Source: Haloarchaeobius salinus (GTDB lineage Archaea > Halobacteriota > Halobacteria > Halobacteriales > Natrialbaceae). Taken from it: a DNA stretch of 64,000 bases. The position numbers and the translations under genes are program-made. Below are positions 1-51,521 of this stretch, one piece after another (within the stretch, counting starts at the first letter, position 1; each line of letters opens with the position of its first letter). The stretch is from NCBI RefSeq assembly GCF_024464185.1, contig NZ_JANHAU010000002.1, forward strand, positions 434,001 through 498,000, in the 5' to 3' direction. The notes beneath the pieces were generated by a model that was given only the letters and a program-made list of their open reading frames with translations, was not told the DNA's origin and ran no database searches.

Positions 1-1
1 C

Positions 2-1525
2 CTGCCCTCGATCCCGGAGGCGGTCGCGGTGATGCTCGCCTGCGCCCGTATCGGTGCCGTTCACAACGTCGTCTTCGCGGGCTTCTCGGCGGACGCGCTC
101 GCCACCCGGATGGAGCGTGCGGAGTCGCGCTACCTCGTCACCTGCGACGGCTACTACCGTCGCGGCGAGGCGGTGAACCAGCGCCGCCGGGCGGACAACG
201 CGCGGATGGCGCTCCCGTACGAGCTCGAGGCGACGGTCGTCGTCGACCGGCTCGCCGCCGGCAGCGGGCGCGACGGCGGCGACGACACCGCCCGCTACGA
301 CGACATCCTCGCGGCGAACGAGGGTGCGACCGTCGACCCCGTCCCGCGCGAGGCCTCGGCCCCGCTCTTCCGGATGTACACCTCGGGCACGACCGGCGAG
401 CCCAAAGCCGTCACCCACACCACCGGCGGCTACCTCGCGCAGGTCGTCTGGACGAGCGAGCGCGTGCTCGACGTCGACCCCGGGACGACGGTCTGGAGCA
501 CCGCCGACCTCGGCTGGATCACCGGCCACAGCTACGTCGTCTACGGCCCGCTCTCGCTCGGCGCGACGACCGTCCTGAGCGAGGGGAGCCCCGACGCGGC
601 CGACCGCGACCGGCCGTGGGAGGTCGTCGAGCGGAACGGCGTGAACGTCCTCTACACCGCCCCGACCGTCGTCCGCTCGTTCATGAAGTGGGGGACGGCG
701 TCGCCCGATGCGCACGACCTCTCCAGCCTCCGGCTCCTCGGCAGCGTCGGCGAGCCGCTCGACGCGGAGACGTGGCACTGGTACCACGAGCACGTCGGCG
801 GCGGCGACTGCCCCGTGGTCGACACCTGGTGGCAGACCGAGACGGGTGCGGTGCTGCTGACGACGCTGCCGGGGGTCGACGCGATGAAGCCCGGCTCGGT
901 CGGCCGGCCACTGGCCGGTATCGACGCCACCGTCCGCGACGACGCCGACGCGGTCTGTCCCCCGGGCGAGCGGGGCTGGCTCTCGGTCGACCGGCCCTGG
1001 CCCGCGATGGCGCGCGAGCTCGCCACCGCCAGCGAGTGGGGCGCGGCGGCCGACGCGGCCGGGCGCTGGCGCTACCGCGTCGGCGACGAGGCGGTGACCG
1101 ACGCGGACGGCTACGTCACCGTGCTCGGTCGGGTCGACGACGTGCTGAACGTGGGTGGCCGGCGGTTCAGCACCGCCGAGATAGAGCACGCCATCGTCGA
1201 GGTCGACGGCGTCGCCGAGGCGGCCGTCATCGGTCGCGACGATCCAGACGTCGGGACCGCCATCGTCGCCTACGTCACCACCGAGGACGGTCCGGCCGGC
1301 GCGACCGTCTCGCACGACGACGTCGACGCGGCGGTCTCGGCTGCCATCGGCGCGGGCTCGACGCCCGACGAGGTCGTGTTCACGCCCGACCTGCCGAAGA
1401 CCCGCTCCGGGAAGATCATGCGCAGACTGCTCGGCGACATCGCCAACGGCGAGGACTACGGCGACACGAGCGCGCTGCGCAACCCGGAGGTCGTCGGCGA
1501 GCTGGAGGCGCGCCAGCGCGAGTAG
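2..1525 (+). CDS. Acetyl-CoA synthetase paralogue (5' end outside window)
   Basis: AMP-forming acyl-CoA synthetase; members activate acetate or a similar short acid to the acyl-CoA through an acyl-adenylate. The reading frame is already open at base 2 and matches the middle and end of the family, so the N-terminus lies upstream. Visible motifs are the P-loop YTSGTTGEPKAV, the acetate-pocket motif DTWWQTETG and the C-terminal PKTRSGKIM with the adenylation lysine. It is clearly paralogous to the complete enzyme at 3555, but the hinge/A8 region reads NVGGRRFSTAEIE instead of NVSGHRLGTMEIE, and the stretch before it (about 1010-1080) lacks the usual R-x-x-Y-x-x-x-x-x-R-F segment. Substrate or CoA handling may therefore differ. 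Confidence 0.93.
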   Translation: MPSIPEAVAVMLACARIGAVHNVVFAGFSADALATRMERAESRYLVTCDGYYRRGEAVNQRRRADNARMALPYELEATVVVDRLAAGSGRDGGDDTARYDDILAANEGATVDPVPREASAPLFRMYTSGTTGEPKAVTHTTGGYLAQVVWTSERVLDVDPGTTVWSTADLGWITGHSYVVYGPLSLGATTVLSEGSPDAADRDRPWEVVERNGVNVLYTAPTVVRSFMKWGTASPDAHDLSSLRLLGSVGEPLDAETWHWYHEHVGGGDCPVVDTWWQTETGAVLLTTLPGVDAMKPGSVGRPLAGIDATVRDDADAVCPPGERGWLSVDRPWPAMARELATASEWGAAADAAGRWRYRVGDEAVTDADGYVTVLGRVDDVLNVGGRRFSTAEIEHAIVEVDGVAEAAVIGRDDPDVGTAIVAYVTTEDGPAGATVSHDDVDAAVSAAIGAGSTPDEVVFTPDLPKTRSGKIMRRLLGDIANGEDYGDTSALRNPEVVGELEARQRE

Positions 1526-1632: not shown

Positions 1633-1684
1633 GGAACTGAAGCGGCGATACAACTATTTCGCTGGCTGTGGATAGCCGAAACAC

Positions 1685-3334
1685 ATGGGTCGACCGCTCA
1701 CTGACGCGGGCTACGACCGCCTCCGACGGCACGCCGAGAGCCACCGCGAGGACCTCGTCTGCCGGCTCTGTGCCGAGGCCGGACTCCGTCCAGCGGAGGT
1801 GACGCAGGTGACGCCGGACTCGGTCGTCGCGGTCGACGACGCGTTCCTGCTCGACCTCCCGGACCGGACGGCGTTCCTGCCGGCCGACGTGGCGCACGAC
1901 CTGCGGCTGTACGCCGACGCGACGGACTGCGCGCCCGACGAGCCCGTCGTCGACGTGTCGCCGCGCCGGGTACAGATGCTCGTCCGCGAGGTCGCCGACC
2001 GCGCCGCCGACGTGACCGGCGAGGCGCGCTTCGCCGACGTGTCGAGTCGGGACCTCCGTGAGCAGTTCGTCCTCCGGCACCTCCAGGCCGGCGTCGACCC
2101 ACGGGTGGTCGCCGCCGCGGCCGGGTTCGAGGGCGTGGCCGGGCTCGCACCGTACCTCGACGAGCCCTCGGGCGTGGAGCTCGCGGCCGCGCTCTCCGGG
2201 GGCGACGGCCACGACGACGACGAGCTGTCGGCCCGGTCGCGCGCCGCCGTCGACCTCCTCGCGACGCTCGCAGGCGATCTCGGAGCCGTGACGACGACGG
2301 AGGAGCTGTACGCCCGGCTCTGCGACCGGGTCGTGAGCGTCGCGGGCTACGAGTCGGCCTGGGTCGCGCGGGCGACCGACGACGGGCTGGAACGGCGGGC
2401 ACACGCGGGCTTCGACGGGGCCGTCGTCGACACCCTCCTCGCGGACTACGCGGACGACCTCGACGCGGTCCTGCGCTCCGGCACACACCGCGTCCTCGAC
2501 CTCGCTGGCGACGACGTTGCGGTCTGCCTGCCCTTCGGCGCGACGGAGGGCGCGGACCGCGTGCTCGGCGTGGGCGTCGCGGGTCCGGTCGCCGACGCCG
2601 AGACGGACGCACTCGTCGCGCTCGGCGGGCTGGCCGGCCGGGCGCTCGACGCGCTCCGCCGCCGTCGCCGGCTCGTCGCCGACGTGGTGACGGAACTCCG
2701 GTTCACCGTCCGCGACAGCGATGCCGTCGTCGTCGACCTCTCGACCGGCCCGGCCGACCGCGTCGAGGTGACCGGCGTCGTCCCCGGCGGCCCCGGACTG
2801 GTGCTGTACGCCGTCGTCGCGGGGGCGACGCCGGACGCCGTCTCCGACTCCCTCGCCGACGACGAGCGCGTCGAACGGGTGCGCTACGTCGACGACACCG
2901 TCGACGGCCCCGTCGTCGAGCTCGCGCTGTCGAACTCGCCGGCGTCGAGACTCGTCGAGTTCGACGCCCGCGTCGAGTCCTACGTCGCCGAGGACGGCGT
3001 CGGGTCGCTCGTCGCCACGGTCGCGACCGACGCCGACGTGCGCGCGGTGGTCGACGGGCTGACCGAGCGGTACCCGGATTCGGGCCTCGGCGCGAAGGAG
3101 ACCGTCGAACGCACGGTCGACCCCGGCGCGGGCTTCTCGGCGTCGCTGCGGGACGACCTCACCGAACGGCAGGCCGCGGTCCTCCGGGCGGCGTACCACG
3201 GTGGCTACTTCCAGTGGCCCCGCGAGTCGACCGCCGAGGAGCTCGCTGACTCGCTGGACGTGGCCTCGCCGACGCTGCACAACCACCTGCGGGTGGCCCA
3301 GGCGAAGCTGCTCGACGCGTACTTCGAGGGCTGA
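1685..3334 (+). CDS. Bat-type HTH_10 regulator with recombinase-like N-terminus
   Basis: Predicted transcription regulator of the bacterio-opsin-activator family, 549 residues. Residues about 1-165 resemble the catalytic fold of tyrosine recombinases (AGLRPAEV early on, then a region ending LREQFVLRHLQAGVDPRVVAAAAGF), but the full set of recombinase catalytic residues is not evident. Residues about 185-330 look like a GAF sensor, followed by a Bat-specific region. The C-terminus (about 490-549, from LTERQAAVLRAAY to the end) is the HTH_10 DNA-binding domain. It sits between two acetyl-CoA synthetase genes on the same strand, so control of acetate activation is the obvious inference. What the GAF domain senses is unknown. 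Confidence 0.88.
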   Translation: MGRPLTDAGYDRLRRHAESHREDLVCRLCAEAGLRPAEVTQVTPDSVVAVDDAFLLDLPDRTAFLPADVAHDLRLYADATDCAPDEPVVDVSPRRVQMLVREVADRAADVTGEARFADVSSRDLREQFVLRHLQAGVDPRVVAAAAGFEGVAGLAPYLDEPSGVELAAALSGGDGHDDDELSARSRAAVDLLATLAGDLGAVTTTEELYARLCDRVVSVAGYESAWVARATDDGLERRAHAGFDGAVVDTLLADYADDLDAVLRSGTHRVLDLAGDDVAVCLPFGATEGADRVLGVGVAGPVADAETDALVALGGLAGRALDALRRRRRLVADVVTELRFTVRDSDAVVVDLSTGPADRVEVTGVVPGGPGLVLYAVVAGATPDAVSDSLADDERVERVRYVDDTVDGPVVELALSNSPASRLVEFDARVESYVAEDGVGSLVATVATDADVRAVVDGLTERYPDSGLGAKETVERTVDPGAGFSASLRDDLTERQAAVLRAAYHGGYFQWPRESTAEELADSLDVASPTLHNHLRVAQAKLLDAYFEG

Positions 3335-3482: not shown

Positions 3483-3525
3483 CACCCGGTTCCCGACTGC
3501 CGGTCGCCCCGATTAGCGCCCCCGC

Positions 3526-3533
3526 TTTTTACG
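3526..3533 (+). promoter_or_regulatory. TATA-like element of acs
   Basis: TTTTTACG is centred about 26 bases before the ATG at 3555. This fits a haloarchaeal promoter giving a leaderless or nearly leaderless transcript and supports that start codon. Confidence 0.5.
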
Positions 3534-5622: not shown

Positions 5623-6045
5623 ATGGCAGACACCGACACTCACGATACAGATTCGCACGCACCCGTCGAGACCGACGGCGGTCACGACACCGCCGACTAC
5701 CTCGACGTGGAGGTACACATGTTCAAACCCGCGACGCCGTTCATGCGCGACCACCTCAGGATCATCTGGGCGATGTTCGTCGCCTGGGCGCTGTTCGTCT
5801 TCGGGCCGGTGCTCGCGACCTACTTCGCGACGGACCTCATGACGAGCACCACGCTCATCGGCTTCCCGTTGCACTACCTGCTGACGGCCATCGGTGCGCC
5901 GGGCGGCGCACTGGTGCTCTCGTTCGTCTACGCACGGCAGCGCGACAAGCTGGACGCGAAGTACGGCATCGACCACTCGACCGACGAGGAGCCCGGTAGC
6001 GACGCGGACACCGTCGCCGCGACCGACGGAGGGGTCGACGAATGA
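5623..6045 (+). CDS. DUF4212 small subunit of a sodium/solute symporter
   Basis: A 140-residue membrane protein of the DUF4212 family, the small partner of SSS-type symporters. After an acidic N-terminus the conserved region (FMRDHLRIIWAMFVAWALF and onward, residues about 43-110) has two membrane spans. The C-terminal tail after KYGI is acidic and poorly conserved. The stop overlaps the start of the large subunit at 6042 by four bases, so the two proteins are translationally coupled, as in other organisms. Placed directly after acs, acetate or another short carboxylate is the likely solute, but substrate cannot be read from the sequence. Confidence 0.92.
   Translation: MADTDTHDTDSHAPVETDGGHDTADYLDVEVHMFKPATPFMRDHLRIIWAMFVAWALFVFGPVLATYFATDLMTSTTLIGFPLHYLLTAIGAPGGALVLSFVYARQRDKLDAKYGIDHSTDEEPGSDADTVAATDGGVDE
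6028..6034 (+). promoter_or_regulatory. Ribosome binding site of the symporter gene
   Basis: GGAGGGG ends seven bases before ATG 6042 inside the end of the DUF4212 gene. Recognisable Shine-Dalgarno sites here occur mainly at internal operon genes, while first genes tend to have leaderless promoters. Confidence 0.5.
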
Positions 6046-7835
6046 CGGTTGCGGCCGGACAGCCGGCGCTCGCGGCCGGCGACGCGACGCTCGCACCGCT
6101 CCAGCTCCTGCCGGACGCGCTGAACGCCTCGTTCAAGCTCGTCCCGGCGATCATGGTCTCGCTGATGCTCCTGCTGTTCCTCGGCATCGGCTACGCGTTC
6201 CGGGTCGCCGACACGGAAGACCTGTGGGTCGCCGGGCGCTCCATCGGCAACGTCGAGAACGGCATGGCGATCGGCGCGAACTGGATGTCGGCCGCGTCGT
6301 ACCTCGGGATGGCCGCGCTCATCGCCCTCTCGGGCTACTACGGACTGGCGTTCGTCGTCGGCTGGTCGACGGGCTACTTCATCCTGCTCATCTTCCTGGC
6401 CGCGCAGATGCGCCGGTTCGGGAAGTACACCGCGCCGGACTTCGTCGGCGACCGCTTCGACTCCGACGCCGCCCGCGCCATCGCCGCACTGACGACCATC
6501 CTCATCGGCTTCGTCTACTCGGTCGGGCAGGCCCGCGGGATGGGGCTCGTCGGCATCTACGTCTTCGGCGGTGATTACGTCACCATGGTGATCCTGATGA
6601 TGGGCATCACGGTCGGCTACCTCGCCCTCTCCGGCATGCTCGGGGCGACGAAGAACATGGCGGTGCAGTACGTCATCCTCATCGTCGCGTTCCTCGCCGG
6701 CCTCTACGCCGTCGGCTTCACCCAGGGCTACTCGACCGTGCTCCCGCAGGTGGAGTACGGCGCACTGCTGTCCCAGCTCGACACCGAGTTCACCGAGCCG
6801 TTCGCGACCGGCGGCGTCTACATCTGGATCGCCACGGCGTTCAGCCTCATCGTCGGCACCTGCGGGCTCCCGCACGTGCTCGTCCGGTTCTACACGGTCG
6901 AGAGCGAGCGCACCGCGCGCTGGTCGACGGTCTGGGGTCTGTTCTTCATCTGCCTGCTCTACCTCTCGGCACCCGCGTTCGCCGCCTTCGGCACCGATCT
7001 CTACGCGAACCAGGTCGGCGAGGTGTACGGCGCGAACGGGATGTCCGGCGCGGAGGGCGACGTCATCGTCGTCCTGGCGAGCCAGCTCGCGAACCTCCCG
7101 ACGTGGTTCGTCGGTCTCGTCGCCGCCGGCGGTATCGCTGCCGCCATCGCGACCACGGCCGGGCTGTTCATCGCCGCCTCCTCGGCGGCCGCCCACGACA
7201 TCTACACGAACATCATCAACCCCGAGGCGACCCAGCGTCAGCAGCTCCTCGTGGGCCGCGCGACCATCATCGCGCTCGGGGCCATCGTCACCCTGTTCGC
7301 GCTCGACCCGCCGGCACTCGTCGGCGAACTCGTCTCCTACGCCTTCTCCCTCGCGGGGCTCGTCCTGTTCCCGATGTTCTTCCTCGGGCTCTGGTGGGAG
7401 AACGCCAACCGGCAGGGCGCACTCGCCGGCATGACGACCGGTCTGCTCATCTGGACCGCCGCCATCGTCAACGAGGTGCTCCCGGCGTACGTCGGCTTCC
7501 TCGCCGACGCGGCCGGTGAGAGCGGGGCCATCGTCCCGATCTATGCGGACATCTTCCCGGCCATCGGGGCCGCGCTGGCGGGCACGCCCATCGTCTTCGC
7601 CGTGACCATCCTCGTCTCGATGGCGACGGAGGAGCCCGACGAGGAGATAAAGCGCATCGTCCGGCAGTGCCACAGTCCCGAACCGATGGGCCAGCAGCAG
7701 TCCGCCGAGGAGGTCGCCGCGACCGACGGCGGGACGACCGTCACCGACGGCGGCCGTTCCGCCGACCCGTCGGCGACGGCGACCGACGCGGAGGCCGGTA
7801 CGCCCGAGGAGACCGGCGGCACCACGGAGGAGTGA
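6042..7835 (+). CDS. Sodium:solute symporter family carrier (ActP-like)
   Basis: A 597-residue SSS-family transporter with about 13 predicted membrane spans, starting near residue 30. The family signature region is seen in DLWVAGRSIGNVENGMAIGANWMSAASYLG and GFVYSVGQARGMGLVG. The last 60 residues after EEIKRIVRQCHSPE are a cytosolic, low-complexity acidic tail. With the DUF4212 small subunit it should import a carboxylate with sodium ions, and its place behind acs suggests acetate. Four-base overlap with the upstream gene and a two-base gap to the UspA gene indicate one transcript. Acetate versus a related acid such as pyruvate or lactate cannot be separated by reading. Confidence 0.93.
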   Translation: MTVAAGQPALAAGDATLAPLQLLPDALNASFKLVPAIMVSLMLLLFLGIGYAFRVADTEDLWVAGRSIGNVENGMAIGANWMSAASYLGMAALIALSGYYGLAFVVGWSTGYFILLIFLAAQMRRFGKYTAPDFVGDRFDSDAARAIAALTTILIGFVYSVGQARGMGLVGIYVFGGDYVTMVILMMGITVGYLALSGMLGATKNMAVQYVILIVAFLAGLYAVGFTQGYSTVLPQVEYGALLSQLDTEFTEPFATGGVYIWIATAFSLIVGTCGLPHVLVRFYTVESERTARWSTVWGLFFICLLYLSAPAFAAFGTDLYANQVGEVYGANGMSGAEGDVIVVLASQLANLPTWFVGLVAAGGIAAAIATTAGLFIAASSAAAHDIYTNIINPEATQRQQLLVGRATIIALGAIVTLFALDPPALVGELVSYAFSLAGLVLFPMFFLGLWWENANRQGALAGMTTGLLIWTAAIVNEVLPAYVGFLADAAGESGAIVPIYADIFPAIGAALAGTPIVFAVTILVSMATEEPDEEIKRIVRQCHSPEPMGQQQSAEEVAATDGGTTVTDGGRSADPSATATDAEAGTPEETGGTTEE

Positions 7836-7837
7836 CC

Positions 7838-8302
7838 ATGTACGACAGCATCCTCATCCCCACGGACGGCAGCCCGACGGCGGAGCTGGCGGTCGACCGC
7901 GCGCTCGCCATCGCGGAGGCGTTCGACTCGACCGTCCACACACTGTTCGTCGTCGACACCGACGCGATGGAGCTGAGCCTCGGCACCGAGCAGGTCGACC
8001 GCATCCGGTCGGGCCGCTTCGGCGAGATGGACGAACTGGAGGCCCGTGCCCGCGAGGCGACCGACCACGTCGTCGAGGCCGGCCGCGAGCGCGGCGTCGA
8101 CGTGACCGCGCACTTCCGGGCGGGCCAGCCCCACAGGGTCATCGCCGACTTCGCCGAGGACCACGACGTCGACCTCGTCGTGATGGGCAGCCACGGGCGC
8201 TCGGGCGTCCGGCGGGTACTGCTCGGCAGCGTGACCGAGAACGTGCTGCGGTCGACGCACCGCCCCGTCATGGTCGTCGACGAGCGCGGGGAGGACGACT
8301 GA
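7838..8302 (+). CDS. Universal stress protein, UspA family
   Basis: A single-domain UspA protein of 154 residues. It opens with MYDSILIPTDGS and carries the ATP-binding pattern G-S-H-G-R-S-G-x9-G-S near residues 115-130, so it is of the nucleotide-binding class. ATG 7838 is chosen because it matches the family N-terminus and is preceded by GGAGG at 7826-7830. It follows the symporter by two bases; haloarchaeal transporters are often paired with a Usp, which is thought to modulate them. Role inferred from context only. Confidence 0.93.
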   Translation: MYDSILIPTDGSPTAELAVDRALAIAEAFDSTVHTLFVVDTDAMELSLGTEQVDRIRSGRFGEMDELEARAREATDHVVEAGRERGVDVTAHFRAGQPHRVIADFAEDHDVDLVVMGSHGRSGVRRVLLGSVTENVLRSTHRPVMVVDERGEDD

Positions 8303-31176: not shown

Positions 31177-31824
31177 ATGAAGTCGATGTCCGTCGAGCTC
31201 CGCTACGCCGAGTCGGCGCTCGCGCCGATGCACCGCGGGCTCTGTGAGTCGTCCGACCTCGACCGCGAGGTCGTCCTCGGCGGGCAGTCCGTCGACGGTG
31301 TCGAGACGGTCAGCTCGTTCGTCTACGGCGAGCCGGACGCGTACGAGGCGCTGCTGACCGACCGAGAGGCGGTACTGGAGTACGACATCACGCCAACCGA
31401 GGACGGCTGCTTCGTCTACGTCCGGCAGGAGCTCGGCCCGGAGGGACTCTCGCTCCTGGACTCGCTCGCACAGGACACCGTGGTCGTCGTCCCGCCCATC
31501 GAGTTCCGTTCCGACCGGACGATGGCGCTCACGCTCGTCGGCCACGGCGACGACCTCAGGGCCGTCCTCGACTCGTTCCCCGAGGCGGTCACGGTCGACG
31601 TCCGACGGGTGAGCGACGGCGTGACCGCCCACGACACGGCCGTCTCGGCGCGCCAGCAGGACGCGCTCCGGGCGGCGTGGGACCTGGGCTACTACGAGAT
31701 ACCCCGGCGCAACGGCATCGAGGCCGTCGCCGACGAACTCGACTGCGCCGTCTCGACCGCCTCGGAGCTCCTCCGGCGGGCCGAGGCCCACGCAGTCGGT
31801 GAGGTGCTCGGCGGCGACGTATAA
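31177..31824 (+). CDS. HTH_10 (Bat-type) regulator
   Basis: A 215-residue regulator: an N-terminal ligand or effector region (SVELRYAESALAPMHRGL onward) and a C-terminal HTH_10 domain from about residue 155 (SARQQDALRAAWDLGYYEIPRRNGIEAVADELDCAVSTASELLRRAE). ATG 31177 is preferred over ATG 31141, since the TATA-like TCTTTTCG sits between them; ATG 31186 is also possible. It follows the FAD subunit and CoxG and is the only regulator inside the island, so it is the best candidate for controlling it. Confidence 0.88.
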   Translation: MKSMSVELRYAESALAPMHRGLCESSDLDREVVLGGQSVDGVETVSSFVYGEPDAYEALLTDREAVLEYDITPTEDGCFVYVRQELGPEGLSLLDSLAQDTVVVVPPIEFRSDRTMALTLVGHGDDLRAVLDSFPEAVTVDVRRVSDGVTAHDTAVSARQQDALRAAWDLGYYEIPRRNGIEAVADELDCAVSTASELLRRAEAHAVGEVLGGDV

Positions 31825-49814: not shown

Positions 49815-51521
49815 TCAGACCGTCTCGTCGACGAACGACTCGAGCAGCTTGCGTTCGGCGGCGCGGAGGTGCTCGTGGAGCGTCGGCGCGGCGATGTCCA
49901 TCGCGTCTGCGACCTCCTCGGCGGTGGAGTCGCGGGGCCACTCGTAGTAGCCCGCCGAGTACGCCGTCTCGAGGGCGGCGCGCTGGCGGTCGGTCAGCCG
50001 GTCGCCGAGGTCCTGCCGGAACGACTCCGTCGACTGGACGGAGCGTTCGACCTCCCGCTTCGAGACGAGGTCGATGTCGTCGTACGTGGACTGGACGGCG
50101 CTGGCGATGGCCTTCAGGTCGGCGTCCGGTGCGGCCTCGACGACGACGCTCCCCTCGCCGTCGGTCACGTCGAACGAGCGGACGGTCGCGCCGACGCCCG
50201 AGAGCGTCTCGATGGCGGCATCGGTGACGGAGAGCTCGAGCAGCGACTCCTCGCCATCGGCGGCGAGACGCGCGTTCCCGATGCCCGACAGCTCGGCGGC
50301 GAGTTCGAGCGCCGTCTCGCCGTCGCCGCCGACGAGGTCGACGAAGCAGGTCAGTCCGGACTCGTCGTTCGAGGCGATGCCCCGCAGCGAGAGGTCGCCG
50401 CCGGTCTCCGCCGCGATGCGGACGAGCGGGTCGGCCCGGTCGCTGTGGCGGAACTCCAGTTCGGCGACGGTGTCAGCGAGCAGGAGGCGGCGCTGTTCGA
50501 CGGCCGTGATGCCGTTGCCGATGCGTGCGCCGAGCTGGGCGAACACGTCGAGCTCGTGGTCGCTGACCGTGTGGTCCGTCGTCGTCCCGACGACGAGCGC
50601 GCCGTAGGACTTCTCGCGGTACGACAGCGGCGTCACGAGCGCGACCCCGTCGTCGACCCCGGCCGCGTCAGCGTCGAGGTCGGTCAGCAGCTGGACCTCG
50701 CCGTCGTCGACCGCGGACTCGACGCCGTCTGCGAGCCCGCTGCCGGTGATGTCGGCCGCCTCGTCGACCGCCCCGGCGGTCTCGCGGAGCCGGACACCCC
50801 TGCTGTGGTCGGTGTACTCGGCGACCAGTGCGGCGCGGTACGGCTCGGTCCCGACGACGGCCTCGCAGACGGCGGTGTCGATGGCGTCCCGTGTGTCCGC
50901 GTCGACGAGCGCGCGGTCCACGCGCCGGATGACGCGGTTGACGTTCGTGAGGCGCTCTAGCTGCTGCTCGCGCCGGGCGATGGCCTCCTCGTTCGCCTCG
51001 TACGTCTCGTCGAGCTCGCTCTCGAGTTCGACGAGCTGGTCCTCGTCACGGAGTGCTTCCCGTTCCCGGCTCGAGAGCGCGGCCTCGGTCGCCTCCAGCG
51101 CGAAGTACTCGCGGACGGTCTCGGAGAAGTCGGAGCGGGCGAGCAGTTCGTCCGCGGTGTCGACCACGTCGTCGCGGTCGACCGGCTTCACGAGGTACTC
51201 GTCGAACGGCATGTCGACGATGTCGGTGTCGGGCGCGACGGCGGTCATCATCGCGACCGGGAACTCGTAGCCCTCCTCGCGGAGGACGTCGAGCGTCTCG
51301 TCGCCCGACTTGCGGGGCATCCGACGGTCGAGCAGGACGAGGTCGACCTGGTCGTCGACCGCCTCCAGTGCGTCCTCGCCGCTGTAGGCGGTCCGGACGC
51401 GGTAGTCGTCGTCCTCCAGCCAGTAGCGGCACGTGTCCGCGAGGTCCTCGTCGTCGTCCACCACGAGGACCGTGGGTCGGGAACTGCCGACCTCGGCGTC
51501 CCGCGACAGGTTCGTTGCCAT
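49815..51521 (-). CDS. Response regulator with GAF and HTH_10 domains
   Basis: A 568-residue regulator. Residues 15-120 form a receiver with acidic pocket VVDDDED, phospho-acceptor Asp65 in LVLLDRRMP and Lys112 in YLVKPVD. A HalX-like helical linker follows (FALEATEAALSSREREALRDEDQLVELESELDE, 140-185), then a GAF domain (about 195-330), a Bat-associated region and a C-terminal HTH_10 domain (LTDRQRAALETAYSAGYYEWPRDSTAEEVADAMDIAAPTLHEHL). It should receive phosphate from an unlinked histidine kinase, sense a small ligand and control transcription. No kinase lies in the window. It shares its end domain with the regulator at 1685. Confidence 0.92.
   Translation of the reverse strand: MATNLSRDAEVGSSRPTVLVVDDDEDLADTCRYWLEDDDYRVRTAYSGEDALEAVDDQVDLVLLDRRMPRKSGDETLDVLREEGYEFPVAMMTAVAPDTDIVDMPFDEYLVKPVDRDDVVDTADELLARSDFSETVREYFALEATEAALSSREREALRDEDQLVELESELDETYEANEEAIARREQQLERLTNVNRVIRRVDRALVDADTRDAIDTAVCEAVVGTEPYRAALVAEYTDHSRGVRLRETAGAVDEAADITGSGLADGVESAVDDGEVQLLTDLDADAAGVDDGVALVTPLSYREKSYGALVVGTTTDHTVSDHELDVFAQLGARIGNGITAVEQRRLLLADTVAELEFRHSDRADPLVRIAAETGGDLSLRGIASNDESGLTCFVDLVGGDGETALELAAELSGIGNARLAADGEESLLELSVTDAAIETLSGVGATVRSFDVTDGEGSVVVEAAPDADLKAIASAVQSTYDDIDLVSKREVERSVQSTESFRQDLGDRLTDRQRAALETAYSAGYYEWPRDSTAEEVADAMDIAAPTLHEHLRAAERKLLESFVDETV

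Follow-up and report, generated by a model that had tools for sequence, protein, structure and literature searches.

A gene of the haloarchaeon Haloarchaeobius salinus lies between two acetyl-CoA synthetase (acs) genes and encodes a Bat-type regulator whose N-terminus looks like the catalytic domain of a tyrosine recombinase. This raises the question of what a recombinase fold does in a transcription regulator, and also of what the regulator controls at this place. Here we follow up an earlier note on the locus and analyse the gene in its window (the whole stretch of 64,000 nucleotides; Table 1) by comparison with related loci. Our data suggest that the protein is probably a dedicated regulator of the cluster for acetate uptake and activation, carrying an exapted and catalytically dead recombinase domain.

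In Haloferax volcanii, Northern blotting detected the acs7 (HVO_A0156)-HVO_A0155-ssf-uspA28 transcript on acetate but with neither glucose nor casamino acids, ssf encodes an acetate transporter that has been characterised, and acs8 is HVO_A0158 (PMC7746861). By gene order the regulator of this species should be HVO_A0157, a tag for which no paper was found in the open-access literature. In Haloferax mediterranei on acetate, the transcripts of HFX_5129 and HFX_5131 are up 3.47-fold and 3.06-fold, respectively, both proteins also increase, and growth at low acetate was restored by HFX_5131 and not by HFX_5129 (PMC11784441). Numbering and identity suggest that HFX_5129 is of the acs1 type, and by numbering the regulator would be HFX_5130. 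The regulator gene was not met in the available excerpts of PMC11237513, PMC8305020, PMC3403918 and PMC1502140. The architecture itself is already in print, filed among recombinases as fam30-04 by Badel et al. 2021 (PMC8371274), a family with the same Phage_integrase, BAT and HTH_10 domains and sometimes GAF_2, and this is the one paper found in the open-access literature that combines HTH_10 and Phage_integrase. The available excerpts of its description make no mention of catalytic loss, acetate genes or binding sites, and on the catalytic loss, acetate link and DNA sites of the fused family nothing was found in the open-access literature, outside which most subscription papers lie.

Table 1. 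Features of the regulator locus, numbered from the first nucleotide of the window
Feature	Position	Strand	Basis
acs1, 3' part	1..1525	+	AMP-binding and AMP-binding_C; genome match C2:433627-435510, 60% to acs2
Upstream inverted repeat TTCG-N15-CGAA	1550..1572	.	Pattern search
Promoter-proximal inverted repeat TTTCG-N15-CGAAA, ending 3 bases before the regulator ATG	1657..1681	.	Pattern search
Regulator (recombinase-like, GAF, BAT and HTH_10), 549 aa	1685..3334	+	ORF from ATG to TGA, Pfam, full model
Tyrosine-recombinase catalytic-domain fold, residues 1-172	1685..2200	+	Profile, model, structure alignment, residue counts
GAF fold, about residues 180-331	2222..2677	+	GAF_2 in orthologues, structure match of full model
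BAT domain, residues 333-484	2681..3136	+	Pfam
HTH_10 domain, residues 492-543	3158..3313	+	Pfam
UAS-like element CCGATTAG, degenerate form of [AG]NANYTAG	3509..3516	+	Motif search, comparison with orthologues
TATA-like stretch of acs2	3525..3531	+	Role inferred from orthologues
acs2, AMP-forming acetyl-CoA synthetase, 662 aa	3555..5543	+	Pfam, ORF list
DUF4212 protein, 140 aa	5623..6045	+	Pfam, ORF list
Sodium:solute symporter (SSF), likely acetate transporter	6042..7835	+	Pfam; Haloferax ssf precedent
Universal stress protein	7838..8302	+	Pfam, ORF list

Results

Domain organisation of the regulator

In a Pfam search with the single window protein, BAT (PF15915; E 1.5e-34, 119.5 bits against a cut-off of 25.8) and HTH_10 (PF04967; E 7.9e-19, 67.7 bits against a cut-off of 23.1) were both found above the cut-offs, and each was matched by 40/40 orthologues at E<=0.01, which bears out the description of the protein as a Bat-type regulator with an HTH_10 domain. 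Pfam GAF gave no match to the window protein itself in the single-sequence search. The GAF-like nature of the middle domain is nevertheless confirmed by GAF_2, matched by 25 of the 40 orthologues, and by the full-length model, in which residues ~174-331 match the GAF structures 5hl6_B (Z 15.4, the best match; rmsd 5.1) and 3mmh_A (Z 15.1, rmsd 3.0); the sensor domain expected of a Bat-like HTH_10 regulator is thereby present. The full-length model has a pLDDT of 84.9 and a pTM of 0.49, at which the mutual placement of the domains is unreliable. The best conserved part is HTH_10, with a mean pairwise identity of 0.705 against 0.491 for the N-terminal domain, and the closest relatives in the GTDB locus set are from Haloarchaeobius (90% and 88% over the N-terminal domain). 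Two further HTH_10 matches are located inside the window, which spans C2:434001-498000, at window positions 31648-31788 (+) and 49839-49997 (-), and the 3.85 Mb genome has 31 in all.

The integrase likeness of the first 165 residues, proposed in the earlier note, was upheld by both profile search and structure prediction. Phage_integrase is a sub-threshold Pfam match at residues 17-157 of the window protein (E 0.0033 with the whole protein, 1.8e-4 with residues 1-173 alone), and it is matched by 38/40 orthologues at E<=0.01 (best 5.7e-12), so that the orthologues have the domain set of fam30-04. A 40-row profile of the orthologous N-terminal domains found the archaeal XerC-like recombinase 4a8e (E 4e-15) and XerA 5hxy (E 1.9e-8). 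AF2 modelled residues 1-178 with a pLDDT of 94.0 and a pTM of 0.87, Foldseek ranked Cre and XerA at the top for this model (E about 3e-6), and its alignment to XerA by VIA-align (Z 18.2, rmsd 3.5, 161 aligned) gives the fold of a tyrosine-recombinase catalytic domain. Profile matches, model and structure alignment together rule out a chance match. The core-binding domain is absent, as the first residue of the model aligns with residue 101 of XerA and residue 105 of MrpR, a recombinase-fold repressor considered below.

Catalytic residues and origin of the N-terminal domain

The usual residue scheme of tyrosine recombinases is R, K, H, R, H/W, Y (PMC10516654). It was compared between 111 distinct fused sequences (123 loci) and 38 distinct free-standing relatives of ~200 aa (41 loci), six free-standing rows having been dropped (L136, in fact a fused gene whose frame is broken, and L215, L217, L250, L253 and L254, which are partial or broken). 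The hairpin Lys, counted as any Lys among the 14 residues preceding R61, is found in 0/111 fused sequences against 38/38 free-standing ones, and His-II in 2/111 against 37/38. Arg-I (91/111 against 37/38) and the Tyr nucleophile (70/111, hence gone in 41, against 38/38) are lost less often, the His/Trp place is occupied by Trp in 95, Tyr in 11 and Phe in 5 of the fused sequences against Trp in 38/38, and Arg-II is complete on both sides (111/111 and 38/38). Two fused sequences (L101 and L138) miss only the Lys and retain Arg, His, Arg, Trp and Tyr. The window protein does not have the full set: the hairpin Lys is lacking, Arg122 stands for His-II and Phe148 at the His/Trp place, while Tyr157 is present. 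The R-H-R-Y check suggested earlier is positive for the nucleophile of this protein and negative for its histidine.

The loss of the Lys in all 111 distinct fused sequences speaks strongly against an active recombinase, and the N-terminal domain appears to be an exapted recombinase domain that has lost catalysis. The reuse of the fold raised in the earlier note is supported in one form, that of a non-catalytic module, as Lys and His-II are lost in the fused clade and kept in its free-standing relatives. The fused clade also has marks of its own, R95 (111/111 against 1/38, in L206) and M98 (110/111 against 0/38), and Arg-II, R61, R94 and R95 are invariant in 111/111. Fixed residues of its own together with catalytic loss indicate a fold that is under constraint, and not for recombination. 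The net charge of the domain per 100 residues, -5.0 in fused against -4.5 in free-standing sequences, speaks neither way on DNA binding.

One branch with support 100/99 separates the 72 fused from the 19 free-standing sequences in a 91-row tree. The tree being unrooted, one fusion event is its most economical interpretation, and the domain would then descend from a free-standing haloarchaeal mini-integrase and have lost its chemistry after the fusion. Matches to the N-terminal domain at E<=0.001, free-standing forms counted too, were found in 308 of the order's 392 genomes. A search of 294 genomes from the phylum (E<=1e-10) gave matches outside the order in 11 genomes, in frames of 77-362 aa, none of which was of fused length. 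Among the free-standing relatives, a ~200-aa gene on the Halobacterium plasmid PHS4 (39796-40401, L110) is annotated as 'site-specific integrase' (WP_012289605), and since copies 83-95% identical to its product occur in at least 10 genomes of the order, it looks mobile. No match to the free-standing integrase was found in viral contigs. The window genome also has a free-standing mini-integrase match at C3:178318-178847 (L217, L299), which looks broken since it is split between two reading frames.

Conservation of the acetate gene cluster

Both neighbours of the regulator are of the AMP-forming acetyl-CoA synthetase type, with AMP-binding domains in both and ACAS_N in acs2, which confirms the position between two acs genes; judging from its genome match, acs1 would start about 430 bases to the left of the window. 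Among 40 fetched loci, taken from the best-scoring matches and mostly picked by similarity to the window gene, acs lies immediately 5' of the regulator in 40/40 and 3' in 38/40 (the second acs is missing in L078 and L087). The corresponding numbers are 80/80 and 78/80 in the GTDB set, for which 80 of 131 confirmed loci were kept and a pattern biased towards fused genes, the RRxQM stretch, was used; the two sets overlap in some genomes and the sequences are related, so the counts are not independent. The entire order acs-regulator-acs-DUF4212-SSF is found in 68/80 GTDB loci, several of the others being cut by contig ends, and the order and strand of acs and regulator are constant in 80/80. The acs1-regulator gap measures 112-603 bases in all 120 loci. 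Seven further fused-gene loci all have acs2, one of them (L262, in G178) without an upstream acs, and plasmid pHG2 of Haloferax gibbonsii has the same gene order under NCBI names, universal stress protein included.

The domain and DUF4212 also tend to occur in the same genomes: among 80 genomes (G121-G200), both were found in 37, the domain only in 9, DUF4212 only in 2 and neither in 32, a domain match meaning E<=1e-15, with free-standing forms counted as well (G130, G183 and G197 are examples). An acs2-like gene (75-83% identical) is present in 22 of 28 genomes with no or weak domain match, and these 22 have no additional acs copy above 44% among the matches listed, which indicates that acs2 without the regulator is also without acs1. 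A genome of the same genus carries a second acs-regulator-acs set (L259, G056:C2:1000000-1014000), in which DUF4212 and SSF were not matched within the 14 kb taken. At another locus (L256, G196:C1:812000-830000), acs2-DUF4212-SSF adjoins neither regulator nor acs1, and ~4.4 kb off on the same strand is a 557-aa frame whose C-terminus resembles BAT/HTH_10.

Conserved DNA elements in the cluster

Two kinds of element were counted in intergenic gaps, those shorter than 40 or longer than 420 bases being excluded; the shuffles used for comparison preserve base composition only, so that the contrasts between gap types are the better control. In the gaps between regulator and acs2, a motif search without preset pattern gave tTTtGcAtAatTAGAg, and sequence comparison places a conserved element directly above the acs2 TATA box. 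The strict pattern ([AG]NANYTAG, a spacer of 5-12 and a TATA-like stretch) occurs in 93/103 regulator-acs2 gaps, 90 of these 93 with a spacer of 7-8 bases, and a loose YTAG-TATA pattern in 102/103 linked acs2 promoters (shuffle mean 6.6). In contrast, the acs2 orthologues of regulator-less genomes have the strict and the loose pattern in 1/22 each (two different genomes), and neither is present before the unlinked 79% acs2 paralogue of the window genome (L297). The window copy, CCGATTAG, is degenerate and belongs to the 10/103 that miss the strict pattern. The acs1 promoters have the strict pattern in 5/104 and the loose one in 13/104 (loose shuffle mean 3.5), and the loose pattern is thus not wholly specific. 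A sigma-70 promoter scan, which is not suited to archaea, gave no match.

The second element is an inverted repeat, TTCG-N15/16-CGAA, found in 104 of 106 distinct gaps between acs1 and the regulator (shuffle mean 0.5), and in its longer form, TTTCG..CGAAA, in 83/106 (shuffle mean 0.03). Two copies are present in 80/106, the starts of the first and last copy being 94-100 bp apart in 43 and 105-110 bp apart in 20 of these 80, most often 95-98 or 107-109 bp. The repeat was absent from the regulator-acs2 gaps (0/103) and found in 2/104 acs1 promoters and 1/22 unlinked acs2 promoters, which rules out a general feature of haloarchaeal promoters. The short form is not rare by itself, as the 64 kb window has 9 copies (shuffle mean 2.0), 7 of them elsewhere in the window; the longer form TTTCG-N15-CGAAA has three sites in the whole 3.85 Mb genome, and the promoter-proximal repeat of Table 1 is one of them. 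Before free-standing integrases the short form shows a weak excess, 4/42 against 0.27 in shuffles, and this hints faintly that the repeat could be older than the fusion.

Discussion

The regulator shares an HTH_10-type C-terminus with Bat, DmsR and NarO, and differs from them in the recombinase-like N-terminus and the linkage to acetate genes. Bat itself is described as an activator with an upstream element (UAS) in its target promoters (PMC1447603, PMC1502140). A tyrosine-recombinase fold turned into a DNA-binding regulator is likewise known from MrpR (YopR, the repressor of the Bacillus prophage SPbeta) and from SroF of phi3T. MrpR has lost catalytic residues, as has the regulator described here, and represses by binding to DNA (PMC10516654). 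These two are phage repressors, whereas the present protein is a predicted regulator of host metabolism that carries GAF, BAT and HTH_10, and MrpR has a core-binding domain in front, whereas here the catalytic domain alone is kept. Its close kin on the sister side of the tree, the free-standing haloarchaeal integrases such as WP_012289605, keep Lys, His-II and Tyr and are without the regulator domains.

The earlier note took the position between two acs genes as pointing to control of acetate activation, and conserved synteny, co-occurrence and the YTAG element of the linked acs2 (102/103 against 1/22 in regulator-less genomes) support such a role. We propose that the GAF/BAT part is the sensor for a signal reporting acetate availability, and that the protein may activate acs2-DUF4212-SSF-usp from the YTAG element immediately above the acs2 TATA box and regulate its own expression at the one or two TTCG-N15/16-CGAA repeats over its promoter. 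HTH_10, and perhaps the recombinase-like domain too, would bind the two kinds of predicted site, the dead domain being most likely a non-cutting module for DNA binding or pairing beside HTH_10.

A possible alternative, which we take seriously, assigns all DNA contacts to HTH_10 and leaves the recombinase-like domain as nothing more than a scaffold for structure or dimerisation, or as a pocket for an anion or ligand made of the old phosphate-binding arginines. The higher conservation of HTH_10 (0.705 against 0.491) agrees with this, as does the residue pattern, since the fused clade can do without Lys and His-II but shows no variation at Arg-II, R61, R94 and R95 (111/111). Since CGAA half-sites also compose the denitrification-promoter motif CGAAYATDKTYG, whose regulator is suspected to be Bat-like in the available excerpts of PMC11218638, the repeats themselves could be read by HTH_10. 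On the other hand, the repressors of recombinase fold use this fold on DNA, MrpR as reported in PMC10516654 and SroF according to a structure title that names it DNA-bound, and two distinct conserved DNA elements suit two binding modules. That the regulator is a passenger, with the YTAG element and acetate induction depending on another factor and synteny reflecting inheritance or transfer of the cluster, seems unlikely to us. The tie between element and regulator does rest on comparison, which leaves room for this reading, but either pattern occurs in 1/22 regulator-less acs2 orthologues, the 79% unlinked paralogue is without it, and the inverted repeats precede the regulator and hardly occur elsewhere in the cluster.

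Far less probable still is a recombinase with full or partial activity that switches the acetate operon by inverting or excising the DNA between paired repeats. It would account for the recombinase fold, for the Tyr and Arg-I kept in 70/111 and 91/111, and for the two repeats in 80/106 gaps, with starts 94-110 bp apart in 63/80. Against it stand the loss of Lys in 111/111, of His-II in 109/111 and of Tyr in 41/111, and the constant order and strand of acs and regulator in 80/80 GTDB loci. It is tempting to speculate on a bolder form of the dedicated regulator with a dead recombinase domain, a frozen synapse in which paired N-terminal domains on the two repeats hold a small DNA loop over the regulator promoter, while HTH_10 and GAF/BAT open or move this loop on acetate. 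We regard this as a rather doubtful proposal; if true, the old pairing contacts of a recombination site would have been reused, and a recombination machine turned into a metabolic switch.

With a dedicated regulator as the probable reading, the protein is a widely conserved candidate for the factor responsible for the acetate-specific induction seen in model haloarchaea, and two binding sites are predicted for it. It would also be an example from outside phages, in a regulator of host metabolism, of a recombinase catalytic domain retained after the loss of its chemistry, and it suggests that haloarchaeal proteins filed as 'tyrosine recombinase' include regulators.

The two synthetase genes of the cluster differ in their rate of change. 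acs1 is the faster-evolving one, with a mean identity of 0.64 against 0.78 for acs2, and the Lys of its TSGTTGxPKG stretch is replaced by Thr or Arg in 24/115 acs1 sequences against 0/106 for acs2. It is possible that acs1 serves the regulator as a partner with a specialised or sensing role.
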